Positions 8,060-62,972 of a stretch of 64,000 nucleotides of DNA are shown in pieces (within the stretch, counting starts at the first letter, position 1; each line of letters opens with the position of its first letter). The notes below the pieces were generated by a model. The model was not told the origin of the DNA. It ran no database searches and saw only the letters and a program-made list of their open reading frames with translations. Origin of the DNA: Paramacrobiotus metropolitanus (Eukaryota; Tardigrada; Eutardigrada; Parachela; Macrobiotidae). The DNA lies in contig NW_026570378.1 of the NCBI RefSeq assembly GCF_019649055.1, positions 62,001-126,000 of the forward strand. Direction: 5' to 3'. Made by a program: the position numbers and the translations under genes.

Positions 8060-10326
8060 ATGAACAGAGGCCATGTGTCCAATACAGCCATTAATGGTGA
8101 GACATTAACAGAAAGGACCTAGAAGTGCTCACGCCGTCACGCGACTGCATGACTATCGTACTTTTACGTTCCTTTCCAGCGAAAACTTGGAAGACAATGG
8201 GCCATGTCGTGAAGTTAATGTTCATTTGCTATTGTAGGCCAGAAACGGAAGCGAACCCGTTTGGAAACCCCGCCTGAAACATCAGTGACCATGGGTTTTA
8301 TGGATAAGATCGCCGCAATGGAAGACCAGTTTGTGAATAGGCTGAAGAATGTTCAGAAGCAAGTCATGGAATCGAAGAAAAGCCAAGGACTCCTCATAAC
8401 CTGTTGCGCCATGTATACCTTTGAGAAAGACATCAAAGATATCCAGAGCCTCCAGATGAATAATTACGGCTCGGGGAAATTGGAGCAGGTGCGGATGGTG
8501 GTCACGGGAGAGGAGATGCTGCCTGTGCCTGCGTGGATAGAAAGTAGAGTGGCTCTTCAAGCATACTGTAAGTAGCCTTATAGCAAGGAAGCAAAATGTA
8601 TTCGGATATTAGCATACGAGTGTCTTAATCGGAAGACTACTAGTAGTTTGTTATTCAGTAGCACATTCATACGAAATCAGAAAGTTTATAATTAACATTA
8701 TGCTGTGAAATCTTTATCAGTGGGACCGGGATTAGAGTCCTTGTCAGCAGTCCTTCGATTTATTTTATCACACTCCACCGCCGGTCGAAGCTCCGCCGTT
8801 GCATTTGTATCTGTTTATTCAAAGTTCCTACTACTCAGCGAAATGTGTAGTTTTTAAAAAATTTTTGCAGGTAGTATGATTGATAAAACGCTAGGTAGGC
8901 AACCTAAGCTTGCATAATAATGACATGCAACTACAGTGTAATGCTTTTTGTGAAGACATGCAAGCAGTTTTGTAGGTTCGGTTTTGAAACGGGCATCCAT
9001 GTAAAAATGCAGAACAGTGAGTCGATGTAGCGCGAAATTTATGTTTACTGTAAAGTTTATCTAATTTTGTGTGGTTTTTCAGTTGAGCGGAAACTGGACT
9101 CTACCCGCCGGCATTCATCAGGTGCCGCTCGTAAGCATGGTTTCGAAGTTCCGTGGCGCGCCAGCGTACAGCTGCAGAGCATCCCACCGGGTTGTTTCGT
9201 GGAGTCTGTCCAGTTATCCTTCATCAATCCGGCCTCCAACGGCAGTCCCACCATCAAAATGGACCAGTCAGCCGAAGGTGCCAGTAATTTATATCTGATC
9301 AACGACACACTGATGAACATCCGCGGCCACACTTACTCCGAGTGCTGTCAAGAGCTGGGCATCTTTCGGCGGGGATACTGCTACATCACGTTGCGCGTGC
9401 CGCTGCGACTGCTCATCCGCGAACAACTCAAACAGTTACGAATCGCTTTGCCGCATAGTGAAGTGGGTGCGGCCCTGGATGATTTTGCCGCACTGAACGG
9501 CAACGACAATGTCGCCTTGAAGTTCGGGCGTTCCAACATGAAAGTGGATCGTCAGTTCCTGGTAAGCATTACCCCCGAGACCCGCATGATATTTGGTCCG
9601 AAGATGGCGGGGCATGTGAGCACGTACGAGATGGATGTCAGTAAGGAAGCGGTGGTGGCTCTGTTGAACGTGGTAAAGGCGGCGACCGATTATCTGCCGT
9701 TGGATTTTGACCGAACCACACCGTTGTTTCTGTATGAATTGATGGCATTGGCCAGCGACTGGAACATCCCGTCAAGGAAACTGCGAACGCAGCTAGCGCT
9801 CCTGGAGCGTTTCTGTGAGCCGGGTTTCAATTTGCACTCGATCCCTGTTGACAAGCTGATGCAGTTTATCCGACGCGATTACATTGCGAATGAAGCCCAG
9901 ACTGGCGTGAAAATGGTATTACTGGGTTTCATGTTTGCGCTGCGGGATATGCTGCTGCCAGCAACGATGGTTGAGCAGTTTAAGAAGGATTTTGATCAGA
10001 TTTCTATGGATCCAACGCTGGACGATGTGTTTGAGCCAGTTGGGTCGCTGGTCAGCGTGGTGACCGACGGCGTCGTTAAGGTGGAATGCGAGTACACCAC
10101 AGTTCCCGTTATTCTTCAGGACGGTAATCAGCTTGAATTGAGAGTCCTGGAATCGGCTAACATTGAGCAAGTTAAAGCCGTACTTGGACGTCGCCTTGAG
10201 GTCCCCATTCACCAACAGATAATTGTATTTGATGGTCGGCGTTTGGCAAGCGACACACTGGTTTCGGATATTGACTTCAAGGATGGGGACATGCTGGAGA
10301 TGTACTTCGCGCAGACTGGTTGTTAG
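8060..10326 (+). CDS. BTB-like protein with C-terminal SUMO/ubiquitin-like domain, copy A
   Basis: Exons are 8060-8096, 8238-8567 and 9083-10326 (536 aa). Exon 1 was placed because an ATG..G segment before GTGAGA gives the phase needed by exon 2 and matches the paralogue at 49107-52953. A basic QKRKR stretch near residues 14-18 could be a nuclear signal. Residues about 262-357 fit a divergent BTB/POZ fold (NDNVALKFGRSNMKVDRQFL...). Residues about 462-536 fit a ubiquitin-like fold: an I-E-Q-V-K helix, then VPIHQQIIVFDGRRLAS, and DGDMLEMYFAQTGC at the end. This tail is closest to SUMO, but the terminal Gly-Gly is Gly-Cys, so ordinary conjugation is unlikely. BTB proteins commonly bridge Cul3 to substrates; that role is inference here. 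The 50 residues before FEVPWRASVQ are unassigned. Confidence 0.8.
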
Positions 10327-43248: not shown

Positions 43249-45783
43249 TTATTGGCGTGAGTCCCAGCATAGAAGAATGTAAGTTGCGAATGTGCCAACC
43301 AGCTGCAACAAACAAAACGAACGAAATTCAAAATAATATTAATTGTATTTACATTATACTACCACTAATTTATATTAATACGTTTTTATACGTTCCCACT
43401 GAAATTATGATGTTATGAAAACTGATTATTGCTAAACATTAATTTAAAATTGCGACTGATTACGTGTAAAACAAAAATTACACTTGTACCATTTCATAAT
43501 ATTTTTAATTGTAGAACAATTAAAATGCATTACTTTTGATTGGTAACTTACAATGGCAATGAATGGACGATCGATTCTGGCCATGCCCCAAACAGTAATT
43601 GCCGGTGGTGTGGTGATCAGACGCTGAACTTCTCCATTTAGCCACAATGCTTCCGGGAGACTTAATTTTTCATATTGCGCTTGGTCTTGCAGTAATGGGA
43701 TAACTTCCTGTCCCTGAAAGTTATAGTGTGATTAGTGTCTATCAAGTTGCGTGATCAACCAGCTGAGTCGTGAATAAATTATCCAATCTTACGCACGGCC
43801 GGCCGGGATACCTTTTTTACTGTTTGCAAAAGTGTACCAGAATAAACAATAACATTTGCGTATACTGCAATTCAGGCGTATACTGCGTTTCAAAGGTTTT
43901 ATCTCCTAAATCTGTAAAGTACACAAAGAAGCAATCGCGGTACGTGCACACTGTAAACTGTAAACATAACTTATACCACAATGTATACAAAAATACAATT
44001 ATTGAGAAATAATCGGTTGTATGAACAGAAGTAACGATTTTTACATGAGTTACATGTGCATAAATTTTAATTTGGACGAAATGTTGTGTGCGATTAACCC
44101 TTTATTTCCACTGCCTGCTGAGTAACCAGCACAAAGGCCACAGACCTTGAGTTTTTCAAGAAAACGTGCGACTGTATTGTTCATAATATGATAATACCAC
44201 CAATCTGATTTTTTAATGAAAACCATTTACAATATTAAGCAAAACACCTAGATACCTACTCTGCGGTCTGCACATCATCATCACATGTAACTAGCGATTA
44301 AATACGATTCCCTCGTACGTACAGCAGTATTGCAGTTTTCTGATCAATAATAGAAGTATGCACTATGCATACAATGCATTGCATTGTATTGTATTCTGTT
44401 GTGTTGTATTATATTGTATTGTATTGTATTGTTAATTGTATTGTATTGTATTGTATTGTATTGCATTTCTAAACTCACTTGCAGCATTAATTACTAGTAC
44501 AGTAGTACTTGATATTTGATTAGATCAAGTGCTTGATGATCGAACTTCTACCAAGAATTTCAAAACAGAGTAAAAGAAATTAGGAGAAATTTTTGCCGTT
44601 GACCCAAAACTGACAAATGTTATGCAAAGGCTATTTATTGCTTTTTGATTTGAATCAATCGGTACAAGGCACTACAAGCACATAAAACGCTGTTGAGTGA
44701 CCATGCAAACTCCACTTCGACTGAAACTCGAAGCCATACATAATTAAGTGTTATTACCTCGTAGAAGGTTTCGTGTCTATTCTATCTACTATGCAGGCCA
44801 CTATCTGTAACCACAAACACTTGTAGCAGTACCTTATCCGTCACGAAAACGAAAGCCAGTGTCCGTACGAACATCATCATCTGTTGGTTGGCGATATCAG
44901 CCAACACCGGTATAGTCGGTGAAATGCCCCGGATGACGTACTGCGCGGCACAGAACAGCGTCCACACAACATCACTGACGTACACGACGCACACATACAT
45001 CCCAATGTCCTCATTCAAACCGCCGACCAATCGGCTGACGATATAATGGCTCTTCATACGCGCTTGCAAATCCTTCGGTGCCACACAACCTTTGGTAATT
45101 CGGGTGAAACACAACCCGAGACACACGGCCCAGATAATGAGAATCCATTGGATGATCTCGTTCAGTACATCTATCAGTGAAATATAACCAAAGGTTATGG
45201 AGTAGAAAATGCGGATCATCGTGTTGTTAGCCAAGGGAACCAGGATCCATGTCCCTGAGTCGTTGCCAAAGTTTCTTGGCTTTAAACTCTGGACGAGGAT
45301 AAAAGTTTTATGTCCGGCATAGGTCACGCAAATCAAAGCCGCAGCGCTCCATATAACAATTATTATTAATCGGTCTTTTTTCAATAAGTATCTTTTAAGC
45401 AGCGCATCACAGTGATCGATATGCTGATGGATCCTTCGAAATCCGTAGACAACAGACAAAGGAATCGCTAGCTGCAGAATGCCAGATAAGAAGATGGTGG
45501 CATTTTCCAGAAACTCACTTGGAGATTTGCCCAAATTTTTTCCATTGTATTTGACATCGAAAATTTTGGATACAGCAAACACGACCCCGCTAATTGTAAA
45601 ACAAAGAAAATTTACAAAACAAAGCAGATTTATAATCCTGTCAACGGTATTTTGATGCTTTTTAAAAACTAGCCGCCGAAGTGAACCGGCATCAAAATCG
45701 ACGAATCCGAATAGTTTAATTACGAGCAGAAATGGCTGCAGCAAAACTCGTAAAATATTTTCATCTGATTTAATGGCCTTCAT
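43249..45783 (-). CDS. Gustatory-receptor-like seven-TM chemoreceptor, copy A
   Basis: Exons are 45783-44833, 43713-43552 and 43302-43249 (388 aa), with all introns in phase 0. The protein has about seven hydrophobic segments, begins MKAIKSDENILRVLLQPFLL, and ends LVGTFATYILLCWDSRQ. The terminal G-T-F-A-T-Y-I-L-L segment, in its own 18-codon exon after a phase-0 intron, matches the C-terminal TYhhhhhQ-type signature and gene structure of the arthropod gustatory receptor (7tm_7) family. These are ligand-gated ion channels of the Gr/Or superfamily with inverted topology. The exon 2 block VWGMARIDRPF is nearly identical in copy B. Intron 1 carries an ATTGT microsatellite. Ligand unknown. Confidence 0.8.
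44372..44466. repeat. (ATTGT)n microsatellite in a Gr-like intron
   Basis: About 95 bp of pentanucleotide ATTGT units with a few variants, within intron 1 of the Gr-like gene. Confidence 0.85.
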
Positions 45784-46658
45784 GGTAAATCAGCTAGTAT
45801 TCTGCTTCCATATGCTGGAAAAATAATCCTTTGACGCGCTGCATCAAATCTCCCTCGGATCATCCTGACGATTGCGGTTTGCGACAGTATGTTGACTCTG
45901 GGTAAACTTGCCTAGTCATTGTAACGTAATCGGTAAGTAATCGAACGTGACTTTTATTGACCATGTAAACAGAGTGGTTCTTCATGCTTGACAATTTGAC
46001 GGATGTTATCGTTTGTGTGGGACAATTCAACAAGGACGCAATTGAAGTTATTTTATTTATATGTAGAGCAATGTGGTGCAATTAAGTTTGAACACATTCC
46101 GCAGCCCGAGGCTGCTTTCATGTGGAAGGAACTACCGCAACTGAGCTGGAGAAATAATTATACGAGTACTCTGTACAATCAATTAGAAGCCGTGACCTTT
46201 GAAAATGAATAGATCACTGCATGATGTACTCTGTCTTAAAAGTGAGTCTAGAAAATCCATCCAGTAAAGCCACTGACACATTAGGACAAACACCGACAGC
46301 GTGGGATAAGGCCATGGGAAGTTAGCGACGGTCATTAACTTCAAGTTACAGCTTTGTACGAGTACTAACGTTTGATGTGTTCCGTGTTTCAAGCTGACGT
46401 TGTGCAAACAAGAGATCTACGAGTAGACAGATGCAGGGCACTTTTCAGTGTTAATCCTGTTTAGCAAGGTTGGCAAATATGCATTTTTACTACAAAAATC
46501 TTTACTGTTGCTTTTATAACAAGGAAATTTATGCTGTTCGACAAAAACTGATAACCAGAAACAACCATTTCACTGGCAGTTCATATAGGTAATTAAGCGA
46601 CAAAATCTCTTTCCGGCTGCACTTTCGAGAAGGTGCAATCTGTTCCGAGACGAGAGAA
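45784..46658. other. Spacer between the two Gr-like genes
   Basis: About 0.9 kb with no supportable gene. It should hold the promoter of copy A and the 3' end of copy B, but I see no clear signal. Confidence 0.3.
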
Positions 46659-47977
46659 TTATTTGCCAGAATCCCAGCACAGCAGAATATAAGTTGCAAA
46701 CGTGCCGACAAGCTGCAACAGAAAGCATTTACTTATTATTAATTTTATGCTGTACTAGGGAAATACTACATGCGCATAATTATCATTGCAGAGGTTGGAA
46801 CACACACCACGACAATAAATGCACGGTCCATTCTGGCCATTCCCCACACGCTGAACGCCGGCGGCGTGTTGGCTAGCCGTAACAGTTCGCCATTCAACCA
46901 AACCGTTTCCACGGGATCTTTCTCGAATTGTGCTTGATTTTGCAAAAGTGGAACAACCAGTTGTGCCTGCAGCAGATACAGACGAACTGTATATGTATTG
47001 TACTTTGTAAAAGCAAAATGTTTATTGATTTGAAACAGAATATTGTGTACCTGATCGAAGACAAAGACAAATGCCAACGTCCGCACAATCCACATCAGCT
47101 GCTGATAAGCCACATCAAAGATCTCCGAATACTGCGGCGAATCCTCTTGTATGACGTAATGCGCCGCCGTGTACAGTACCCAAATGATATCGTTAAGGTA
47201 CATCACCGCAATATACATGCCGAAATCGTCGCTCAAGCGACCCACACAACGGCTCAGACTGTAGTGATCCGGCATGTGACATCGCAGACCATGTATCGCA
47301 CACTGTTCCGCCATTCTGGCAAAACACAATCCCGCGGTTACTGACCAGATTATCAGGGTACACTGGGCGGTTTCGTACAGAATATCCATTATGGAGACGT
47401 AGATAAAGTTGACTGTGGACATCGCCTGGATGGCCGTGTTATTGACCGTTGACGCCAAGAACCACGCATTGCAGGTGGCGTTGGTGTTGTTGGCCAGTAA
47501 ATACGCTTTCTGTGCGGTATATCCCAAGATGACAATAATGGCGGTGATCCAGACAAAAAGAGTAATAACTTTATCACGTTTTTTGAAGTATTTCTGGAGA
47601 AGGTGATCGCATTCATGGATATGTTGCTGGATGTTCTGCAGTCCGTAGATAACCGACAGGAACAAGAAGAACTGCAGAATGCCGGTTAAGAAACTAGCTG
47701 TATTCTCCAAGAATTCACTGGGCGATTTCCCGAATCCTTTATTGCTGAAGTTGACCTCCAGAAATCGACTGGCAGCATAGGCGGCTGCGTTTAAAACAAA
47801 CCAGAGAAAGTTCGCTAATGAACATAATTTAATGATGGTGTGCAGCGCGGACTGCCGCTTTGTGGAAGTGATTGTACCGAATAAACTGCGAAATTCAACG
47901 AAACCCAAGAGTCTCACAATGATGAGAAACGGCTGCAGTATGGTGTTTAACAGATTAGCGTTATTTGTAATTTTCAT
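46659..47977 (-). CDS. Gustatory-receptor-like seven-TM chemoreceptor, copy B
   Basis: Exons are 47977-47051, 46966-46808 and 46712-46659 (379 aa). The start at 47977 (MKITNNANLLNTILQPFL) matches the start of copy A; a 38-codon in-frame upstream extension is rejected for that reason. Exon 2 (LLQNQAQFEKDPVETVWLNG ...) and the last exon (LVGTFATYILLCWDSGK) align with copy A, and both introns are again phase 0, with donors GTACAC and GTGTGT. The GKSPSEFLENTASFLTGILQ block in exon 1 is also shared. The first intron is only 84 bp against 1.1 kb in copy A. The tandem, same-strand arrangement points to local duplication, as is usual for chemoreceptors. Confidence 0.8.
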
Positions 47978-49106
47978 GGTAAGATTTCGATAATTAGCAA
48001 CACTGCATACGGAAAAGATATTAAGTAATAAAAAGAAAGATGCACAATATCTTTTACAGCATTCCCTGATCATCATTCCCGCGATGTTCAATGACGTGCT
48101 TCGGTAGATTGTACTCAGTACAATCAGTAATCACCGGTAAGCTGAAGGGCTCTCAACAACCTGACAAGTTGGCGGATGCGATCGTTTACTTTGACGACAA
48201 GAGCGTGTTTACTTTTCCGGTCAACCAGGATACCCAATACAAATACAGAATCGATATTTCCTACTAACCAAAATTCTTTTTAATACATTTTACCGCATAC
48301 ACAGTTTTCGGTATCCACGGTTGTGGTTGTAGCTTGGTTAGAAGAAGCCGCGCGCCATTCAGATAAGTCCAGCTTGCTCGAAATCGTACGAAAATGCTGA
48401 TGTTGGAAGCATCGGCAGCAATTCCAGGTCCACCCCAGTACAAAATGGTTACACTGGTGAAATTCTTTGAGTGGAGGCCTTTGGCAGATCTTCGTGATCC
48501 TCGGTATGTATCGTGCAACGAGCTCGCCTTCGCATCACGGTGTAGTACACACCACAATACAGTTTACTTGTACACCAGTTTCGGAGCGTCTTCTTTTGGT
48601 TTAATTTCGTTGAGATTCGACGACAGGCAGTAAAATGCATCTACTATATGATCCGTCATGAAGTATCACGTAACGTTTTTCGACCTTTGTTAATTACTTA
48701 TTTTGGTAATACAGTTAGAAGATTTTCCATCAGTTAGCATTCTTTAATAAATTTAATAACTGGTTTGTTCTTCGCATCCGGTGGCTTGGTCATTCTTTTA
48801 GAATAATTCTGTTTTTTTGCTGTGCTTTTCATTAAATAAAGTTTATGACAAAGAAAACCATTCATGGTCAGCCAAAGAAGATTTTTTATTAATGCATATC
48901 CATCAGAAATCTGTCATAGTCAAGTGTGCACTGATTATTGGTATGAATAAAACTTTCCAGGATAAAACCAAACACAGCACATGTGTCAACCCGAATCTAC
49001 AGATACATGCCGCCAGAACGAGAACATCTTTATAAAAAGAAGAAACAAACAGCCAAAATCATGTTAAAAATGAGAAATGTCTAGGAACATTAGAATTAGT
49101 AGTTAT
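47978..49106. other. Spacer between Gr-like and BTB-UBL genes
   Basis: Contains the short open frame listed at 48091-48267 and, on the minus strand, an open frame ending at 48264. Neither has a recognised domain. No other feature is seen. Confidence 0.3.
48091..48267 (+). CDS. Short open frame of unknown status
   Basis: Fifty-eight codons from an ATG at 48091 to TAA, including GKLKGSQQPDKLADAIVYFD and a polar end QYKYRIDISY. The composition looks coding, and it starts 114 bp upstream of, and divergent from, the Gr-like gene. It may be chance or a terminal exon entered at the CTCAG near 48117. No homologue is recognised. Confidence 0.15.
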   Translation: MTCFGRLYSVQSVITGKLKGSQQPDKLADAIVYFDDKSVFTFPVNQDTQYKYRIDISY

Positions 49107-61747: not shown

Positions 61748-62972
61748 TTAAAAAGCAGCTACAATCTTGGCAGCTTTCTTCTTCAACTCCTTTATTTCGT
61801 AGCGGACAGCAAAATCTAAATAACGATCAGCATTGTCCTTGTGAAGCCCCACATCATCAAATCTCCGCAAAGGTAACGCAGATCCTCCAGCTCATACCTG
61901 TGGGCAACTACTCGTATCTCTTCGGTATTATTCTTTAATTCACCCGAGACGGTGCGGCCGTACAAAAACTCAAAAATTATTTTCAAAATATTCCCGTTGA
62001 CGTCGGCAATCTTGCAGATGCCGGTGGATTTCTCCGACATGTGCGTGGTAAACATGGTGGCAAAAACTGCCGATTGGGCAGCGAGGATGGCGCGATGTAC
62101 AGCAAATTCTACATTGTCCGAAGAAATTATCTTAAAGTCAGCAAAGTTTTCCGACTGGAGGATATTGCCAAGTTTGTCGGCCAAGCTTTGCGGTCTGCCT
62201 AACGCTGCCGGTGGTGTATGAACCAACAACTCGATGGATCATGGAACACCGGGTGTCACCGGTTAAAGCGTTCTCAGTGAATACTGGCGCAACACAAGGA
62301 ACCGTCAAGATTCCTGGGTTACATTTGCACTCTTTACTGTTCGGTTGAAAAGTAACATCGCCTCGAGTTGACTGGATCGCCTCGCCTGAACCAGCACGAA
62401 GACTGTAATTGTTCAAACCTTAATTTATAACACTGCACTGACACAGCATTTTTTACTACTGTGTACAGTGTAATAAGTACACATGGTACTAAAACATGTT
62501 CCCGTTAGTTTTCAAAACATCGCTCACCGGTACTGTAAAATGCGAGTACGAGGCTACTACGAGCACATATTCGCAGCCTCGCACTTACGTAAAGGTGAAA
62601 TCCATCATAGTACCGGTATACGTGTTACGCTGAATTCCACATCTTTCGGTGATAAAACCAGTCCGTGGTTCGATCAATGCTTGAATGCTTATATCTCTTC
62701 GTTCGGATGTACCATCCCACGTGTGCAGAATTCTTTGTATCGAAAACGTCCACAATCCAACAGGAAGGTCGGGATATTGTGGGGATGTATCATGCATCCA
62801 TAGCAAGGTCCATTTTATATGTCAAAATGTGCTGGTCTACGCGAGGAATATACTTATAATCTCTCTTGGTCTCATGGTGCATGTGGAAATCGGAGGCAGC
62901 GGCTTCGAACTTCACTCGGACCATGGCAACCGGTGCAGTGGCAGGATACGCGTGCCAATGTTTTTCGGCCAT
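61748..62972 (-). pseudogene. BTB-domain gene (SPOP-like layout) with three frameshifts
   Basis: From an ATG at 62972 (MAEKHWHAYPATAPVAMVRV) coding-like sequence runs to about 62800, where one extra base shifts the frame (near 62790-62800). It continues as LPVGLWTFSIQRILHTWDG and ERRDISIQALIEPRTGF to a GTAAGT donor at 62588. The intron ends at TTACAG (62403), and the phase matches the next exon (LRAGSGEAIQSTRGDVTFQ). A second slip near 62205-62225 leads into a good BTB/POZ domain: SLADKLGNILQSENFADFKI, VHRAILAAQSAVFATMF and KIIFEFLYGRTV. A third slip near 61850 leads into DNADRYLDFAVRYEIKELKK and TAA at 61748. The N-terminal part may be a MATH-like substrate-binding domain, which is inference. 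With three frameshifts in 1.2 kb while neighbouring genes are intact, this is most likely a pseudogene. Confidence 0.6.

Follow-up and report, generated by a model that had tools for sequence, protein, structure and literature searches.

Two genes with a BTB region and a ubiquitin tail

The window (the whole stretch of 64,000 nucleotides analysed here, from the tardigrade Paramacrobiotus metropolitanus) carries two related genes, one on each strand (Table 1). The plus-strand gene at 8060-10326 has three exons joined across GT..AG introns and encodes a protein of 536 residues that ends DGDMLEMYFAQTGC-stop; its minus-strand paralogue at 52953-49107 is likewise built of three exons and codes for 531 residues ending TELVGC-stop. 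These two ends bear out the preliminary description of this DNA, which had reported Gly-Cys in place of Gly-Gly in both paralogues. In each gene the tail and the BTB-BACK region share one exon and one frame, and the ubiquitin fold is predicted to be an integral part of the longer protein. Exon 3 of the plus-strand gene has at least 60 matched stretches in the genome (60 of the 60 candidates scored), and family membership is a lower bound, as the searches scored 60 and 75 candidates, all in one genome (an assembly of 169.8 Mb). The window also holds two related minus-strand frames at 44782-45789 and 46766-48130 that look by eye like multi-pass membrane proteins, perhaps receptors.

Table 1. Positions of the exons and predicted domains of the two BTB-ubiquitin genes in the window.
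Feature	Position	Strand	Basis or remark
BTB-ubiquitin(G76C) gene, exon 1	8060-8096	+	start ATG, open frame, phase-1 GT donor
BTB-ubiquitin(G76C) gene, exon 2, N-terminal conserved region	8238-8567	+	AG acceptor, GT donor; 32 genome matches
BTB-ubiquitin(G76C) gene, exon 3: remaining N-terminal domain, BTB, BACK, ubiquitin tail	9083-10326	+	stop TAG
Predicted BTB fold	9475-9813	+	model residues 131-243; Foldseek and VIA against PDB
Predicted BACK-like helices	9847-10032	+	model residues 255-316; SPOP/KBTBD4 alignments reach residues 306-320
Predicted ubiquitin-fold tail, ubiquitin positions 1-76	10096-10323	+	Pfam; 1ubq 1-76 against model 338-413
Gly75-Cys76 codons GGT TGT, immediately 5' of the stop	10318-10323	+	
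Paralogue, exon 1	52953-52932	-	
Paralogue, exon 2	52740-52411	-	
Paralogue, exon 3, coding for BTB-BACK and a Gly-Cys-ended ubiquitin tail	50350-49107	-	63% identical to the plus-strand exon 3

Predicted domain architecture

We modelled exon 3 with AlphaFold2 (413 residues, 32-row family alignment, mean pLDDT 80, pTM 0.64) and produced a second model from which the tail had been removed (333 residues, pLDDT 78). The top Foldseek match of the tail-less model was SPOP (E 1.1e-5), and VIA-align against the PDB returned NPR1 (Z 10.5, rmsd 4.2) and SPOP (Z 9.6, rmsd 4.5), each over 166 aligned positions, with further matches to KLHL22, KBTBD4, KEAP1 and NS1-BP (Z 8.0 for the last). Among the best 50 VIA-align matches listed, 49 were BTB proteins by title, the exception being Mini spindles TOG3. 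Because the VIA-align and Foldseek matches are BTB-BACK proteins, the middle of the protein is expected to consist of a BTB fold and BACK-like helices. The preliminary description of a BTB-like protein is thus upheld by the match of the model to the BTB-BACK folds of SPOP, NPR1, KEAP1 and KBTBD4, and the limits it had proposed for the BTB region (residues 262-357) and the tail (462-536) agree with those of the model (about 254-366 and 461-536). At the level of sequence profiles, Pfam BTB had no match in the two window proteins nor in 32 family members. The best PDB profile match for the region, ZBTB7A, was weak (E 0.021), as was the hhalign comparison of the family BTB with ordinary BTBs of the same genome (E 0.0023, probability 12.7).

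Residues 338-413 of the model superimposed on residues 1-76 of ubiquitin (1ubq) with Z 14.1 and rmsd 1.4 over 76 aligned positions, and Pfam ubiquitin (PF00240) matched the tail with an E of 7.5e-11 (42.1 bits, cut-off 25.4), both in agreement with the earlier view that the C-terminal 75 or so residues have a ubiquitin fold. Based on this alignment, the terminal Cys is expected to occupy the position of Gly76, in a stretch where the exon-3 model has low confidence (block mean pLDDT of 52 at the last three residues). The predicted architecture is therefore a divergent BTB-BACK region followed by a ubiquitin fold.

Conservation within the family is highest in the N-terminal domain, with a mean column identity of 57% (19 rows), compared with 45% for BTB-BACK (24 rows) and 33% for the tail (26 rows). 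PDB profile searches with this domain gave nothing of note and no recognised relative, and hhalign against three MATH domains of the same genome gave a probability of 0.5 over 11 columns. With the model searched whole, Foldseek aligned about 300-390 columns to full-length SPOP, MATH being without a profile match. The conserved motifs of the N-terminal part (window 8240-9450) are GFEVPW, FINP..GSP, GQTYSECC.ELGIFR..YCY and RVPLR.

Origin of the tail

The preliminary description had seen a SUMO-like character in the tail, and this was not supported as an account of its origin. Among the 33 tails that we tabulated, 32 resemble the ubiquitin of the genome more closely than its NEDD8, with one tie, and identity to that ubiquitin reaches 44-45 of 76 residues (L001 second copy, L005). 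Several tails end LVLRLRGC-stop (L005 first copy, L006, L023 and L030), and the one family spans a gradation from such ubiquitin-like LRLRGC endings to the diverged copies of the window. In the gene tree (25 of the 33 rows, with frames of at least 200 aa), the window copies lie inside a supported clade of 11 (98/98) together with ubiquitin-like members, and in a tree of the tails only, ubiquitin falls among the family tails. The tail thus appears to be of ubiquitin origin and not SUMO. In these comparisons SUMO (L040), NEDD8 (L032) and SF3A1 (L036) were named by eye.

A derivation from SUMO would be suggested by the QTGC ending of a window copy, since SUMO1 ends QTGG, and by phmmer, in which the exon-3 tail aligned with SUMO1 chains up to the penultimate residue (E of about 1e-6). 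The AU test (76 columns, 27 of the 33 rows) also left a grouping of the window copies with SUMO standing, without formal rejection (p 0.148). Nevertheless, Pfam ubiquitin outscores Rad60-SLD on the same tail (34.3 bits for the latter), and the 98/98 clade that holds the window copies includes the two loci with 44-45 ubiquitin residues, one of which, L005, ends RLRGC. As these paralogues retain ubiquitin-like tails, the SUMO-like look of the window copy is probably misleading, and we regard a SUMO origin as hardly tenable. The AU test likewise did not reject a tree in which all 27 tails were held together (p 0.102), and the capture of ubiquitin may have been one event or two, as both are compatible with the tail data.

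The end of the tail across the family

The set of 33 tails comprises 35 frames minus five pieces (the second frame of L007, L017, the first half of L023 and two of L024), plus L030, L034 and L035. A complete tail was not found in L014, L017 or the third gene of L018. L017 and L030 (C63) have in common the stretch LREDSSQQLHKRRITPVSNTVYMTMRHTA, in one frame, which follows the first half of the tail in one and precedes the second half in the other, and which is perhaps a repeat within a tail intron.

Exact Gly-Cys-stop was found in 20 of the 33 tabulated tails (21 of 34 with L031) and Cys at position 76 in 23 of the 33 (24 of 34 with L031). The other tabulated tails have a gap at this position in seven cases and a different residue in three, of which L013 and L022 are frameshifted and L034 is clean, with Phe. 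Thirteen of the 34 located ends lack exact Gly-Cys-stop. Three of these still hold the Cys, either followed by one extra residue (L016 first copy, L020) or preceded by Val (L003). The remainder have a frameshift near the tail end (L007, L013, L022), a tail that stops two residues early (L008, L018, L019), or an end that is extended (L015) or altered (TTVSR in the second copy of L002, LMSG in the first copy of L010), in addition to L034. The placement of the gaps depends on the alignment: ungapped, positions 75-76 of L010 first copy would be Ser-Gly, and position 76 of L002 second copy would be Ser. The Cys that had been proposed for a test of invariance is therefore frequent and not invariant, and the endings that would have spoken against the preliminary description occur in part, in that 13 of the 34 ends depart from exact Gly-Cys-stop; the tail does fold as ubiquitin in the model, and a Gly-Gly ending was found in none of the 34 located tails.

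Four of the 20 Gly-Cys tails are weaker witnesses, namely L009, L023, L030 and L035. The last three are tail ends with their first part in a different frame or exon, and the copy in L009 has many stop codons, so that a probable pseudogene, too, has kept Gly-Cys. The Cys is encoded by TGT or TGC and the Gly by GGT, GGA or GGC, each of the three stop codons is used, and because these codons vary, silent changes appear to have passed while the Cys stayed.

The two regular polyubiquitin genes of the genome end RLRGG-stop with no added residue (GGAGGTTGA, GGAGGTTAA). Comparison of the tail end of L030 (GGATGTTAA) with the polyubiquitin GGAGGTTAA indicates that a single base turns Gly76 into Cys, GGT to TGT being a one-base step at codon 76, and the tail end of L006 (GGATGTTGA) is likewise one base away from Gly76. 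Human UBB ends Gly-Gly-Cys, and we considered whether the Cys was inherited from such an extension of the donor gene; the direct Gly-Gly endings of the regular polyubiquitin genes speak against this. Prenylation of the tail was also rejected, based on the lack of any CaaX, CC or CXC ending, the motifs for this modification, among the tail ends. A third ubiquitin repeat gene, L027 (C3:1401100-1402800), has diverged units, the last of which ends LPGG-stop.

Conservation of Cys76 and of other tail residues

Site rates were estimated from 25 rows and 301 columns with gaps as missing. On this treatment Cys76 was the 32nd slowest of the 301 sites and the 7th of the 76 tail sites, and it rose to 9th slowest of 301 once the two frameshifted rows were removed. 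Positions 71-74 are among the fastest sites (ranks 222-285 of 301), and Gly75 ranked 56. By parsimony with gaps as missing, Cys76 required one step, fewer being required only by K27, Q40 and Q41; with gaps as a state, it required six steps and stood 13th to 19th of the 76 sites. The rank figures thus depend on gap placement. Taken together with the endings, these sequences indicate that the tail end is lost now and then and, where present, is nearly always Cys, and that Cys76 is retained across much of the family while its neighbours change fast. Placed on the tree as a label, Gly-Cys occurs on both sides of the midpoint-root split and requires at least seven changes, compared with a mean of 8.4 for shuffled labels, 107 of 500 shuffles being as low. 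Because this clustering is not significant, a single gain of Gly-Cys is not shown by the tree alone.

The family as a whole appears to be under purifying selection, as each of the 19 comparisons made between paralogues, domain by domain, gave a dN/dS below 1. The values were 0.12-0.23 for the N-terminal part and 0.25-0.33 for BTB-BACK; those for the tail were 0.13-0.68, several dS values there being near saturation.

Within the 33 tails the most retained residues of ubiquitin are Q41 (33), Q40 (32), K27 (31), R42 (28) and D58 (28), and the counts for lysines are K63 in one, K48 in 10, K29 in two, K33 in three, K6 in 12 and K11 in 12. The core of the tail therefore seems to have stayed, and the lysines for chain building are mostly gone. 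We assigned two clades by hand (12 and 17 rows, with L008, L015, L018 and L019 in neither). The C3/C63 clade has R42 in 17 of 17 tails, R72 in 13 and R74 in 12. The window's clade mostly keeps the Cys and has R72 and R74 in three of 12 tails each; the exact residues of the hydrophobic patch are present in five (L8), five (I44) and four (V70) of the 12, often with other hydrophobics instead. Since only three of 12 retain R72, the tails of the window's clade are unlikely to make the usual contacts of the C-terminus of ubiquitin. Among other cysteines, Cys59 is present in 15 of the 33 tails, in both clades, and a common helix change, VNLAYWVYQLKC or close to it (Cys28), is found in L006, L010-L013, L016 second copy and L020-L022.

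Proposed explanation: a captured ubiquitin with a terminal thiol

To our knowledge, ubiquitin's last glycine, its working end, almost never changes. We give about an even chance to the reading that the family carries a ubiquitin acquired by capture and barred from conjugation by G76C, that this ubiquitin serves a divergent BTB-BACK adaptor as an integral domain for docking, and that the thiol itself is under selection. A ubiquitin unit would have been acquired at the C-terminal end of a divergent BTB-BACK protein, and codon 76 would have changed from Gly to Cys by one base in most copies. As Gly76 is absent, E1 would not be expected to activate such a tail, nor would the tail be passed on; it would stay an integral ubiquitin domain, through which the protein, a putative adaptor of the cullin-3 type, would most likely dock on partners that bind ubiquitin. 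In the version that we favour, selection would keep the terminal thiol for its chemistry, a bond to a partner's cysteine that is reversible by redox or made by thiol exchange. The analysis shows the predicted architecture, the ubiquitin origin and the position and retention of the Cys; the non-conjugatability of the tail, its docking role, the link to Cul3 and the thiol chemistry are inferences. The end of ubiquitin is closely monitored by E1 and E2 enzymes, the selections in the part of PMC3731359 drawn on here having concerned positions 71-75 and not 76.

One alternative is that only the loss of Gly76 matters, the Cys being a one-base escape from activation by E1 or from reading as a C-degron that was fixed because reversions are harmful. 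KLHDC3 and KLHDC10 bind the Gly76 end of ubiquitin as a C-degron (PMC11568203, in part), which a Cys-ended tail would escape, and UBB+1, which has lost the terminal Gly, is unable to build chains (PMC4727241, in part). The Cys is indeed one base away, and several members end otherwise, which would follow if every ending but Gly-Gly sufficed. Neither C-degron escape nor non-activation alone would demand Cys in particular, however, and codon 76 would be predicted to vary freely. The observed Cys frequency at this codon does not fit that prediction, as the departures from it are mostly gaps (two of them readable as substitutions) and two of the three other residues lie in frameshifted tails. This alternative is accordingly one that we hold to be possible and yet doubtful, and the preference for Cys specifically suggests thiol chemistry. 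Decay or drift of the family, with the Cys merely inherited and useless, would account for the frameshifts or stops in L007, L013, L022, L009 and part of L005, and for the Gly-Cys that L009 still has. It is very improbable, considering that dN/dS was below 1 in every comparison, that the three-exon genes of the window are intact and that Cys76 is slow beside fast neighbours.

If the thiol is what counts, the tail could be a mimic that makes disulfides with the catalytic cysteines of E2s, HECT ligases and DUBs and acts as a trap or inhibitor, perhaps in drying or oxidative stress. The cytosol is a reducing environment, which weighs against such bonds. Ub-G76C does form disulfides with the catalytic cysteines of some DUBs and of E2 and HECT enzymes (PMC10619426 and PMC4734694, both in part), and some DUBs of the panel tested were unreactive with it (PMC10619426, same excerpt). 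The second-best PDB single-ubiquitin sequence for the L006 tail was 5bnb, which is Ub-G76C according to an excerpt of PMC4734694 (82.6 bits, against 78.9 for the commonest ubiquitin sequence, taken as wild type). Mimicry is also consistent with the arginines kept in the C3/C63 clade. Set against this is the window's clade, which keeps the Cys yet has mostly lost R72 and R74, together with many of the exact patch residues, and whose loss of these arginines would argue against simple mimicry of ubiquitin contacts. We therefore consider a trap of this kind unlikely. A broader suggestion, which we put forward tentatively and think rather improbable, is that the family is a natural, amplified ubiquitin-G76C carried on BTB adaptors, the thiol of which would form reversible covalent bonds with catalytic cysteines of the ubiquitin system, by disulfide or thioester exchange, and so act as a switch, as a trap or as a relay cysteine in the transfer of ubiquitin near a cullin complex.

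Genome setting and comparison with known systems

Pfam BTB has at least 150 matches in the genome (150 scored of 1036 candidates), and the MATH model PF22486 has six, this being one MATH model only, so that a missing match does not show absence. The neighbouring exons of several BTB copies had no clear MATH domain by eye. Since BTB matches are many and those to PF22486 few, the BTB-ubiquitin family is probably one divergent branch of a large BTB expansion. An ordinary BTB exon of this expansion lies in the window at 61858-62163 on the minus strand (PF00651, E 4.2e-16). The clustered, duplicated adaptors recall the expansions of MATH-BTB proteins in nematodes. Grasses show a comparable MATH-BTB expansion (PMC6883508, in part). 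No description of a BTB protein with a ubiquitin tail, from tardigrades or elsewhere, was found in the open-access papers searched; in the portions of two tardigrade papers drawn on here, one names BTB solely among its references (PMC6797769) and the other lists it as a single orthogroup of a table (PMC5531438).

This multigene family carries a ubiquitin in which Gly76 is Cys in most copies, the Cys being kept while the adjacent residues drift. If the thiol works, it would provide a natural counterpart of the Ub-G76C tool that traps E2s, HECT ligases and deubiquitinases, and a route by which redox state could be coupled to ubiquitin ligases in a stress-tolerant animal.

The tail has the same fold as ubiquitin and the same length to position 76, with identity of up to 45 of 76 residues, and shares its G76C end with the engineered Ub-G76C. 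Unlike the ubiquitin of polyubiquitin genes, it sits behind a BTB-BACK region, lacks the di-glycine and has mostly lost K48 and K63. A BTB followed by BACK-like helices is shared with the SPOP-type MATH-BTB and the KLHL and KBTBD adaptors; however, the BTB of the family is too divergent for Pfam, a ubiquitin tail has been added and, in comparison with SPOP-type proteins, the N-terminal domain is not recognised as MATH. Integral ubiquitin-like domains are also carried by ubiquilin, Rad23, parkin and OASL, with most such proteins having them at the N-terminus. The ubiquitin fold of the family would likewise be permanent within a larger protein, whereas its position is C-terminal and it mostly ends precisely at 76 with Cys. 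UBB+1, for its part, resembles the family in being without Gly76 and is unable to form chains (PMC4727241, in part), but it arises aberrantly and carries 19 inserted residues at its end, while the tails described here belong to a gene family with a Cys end.
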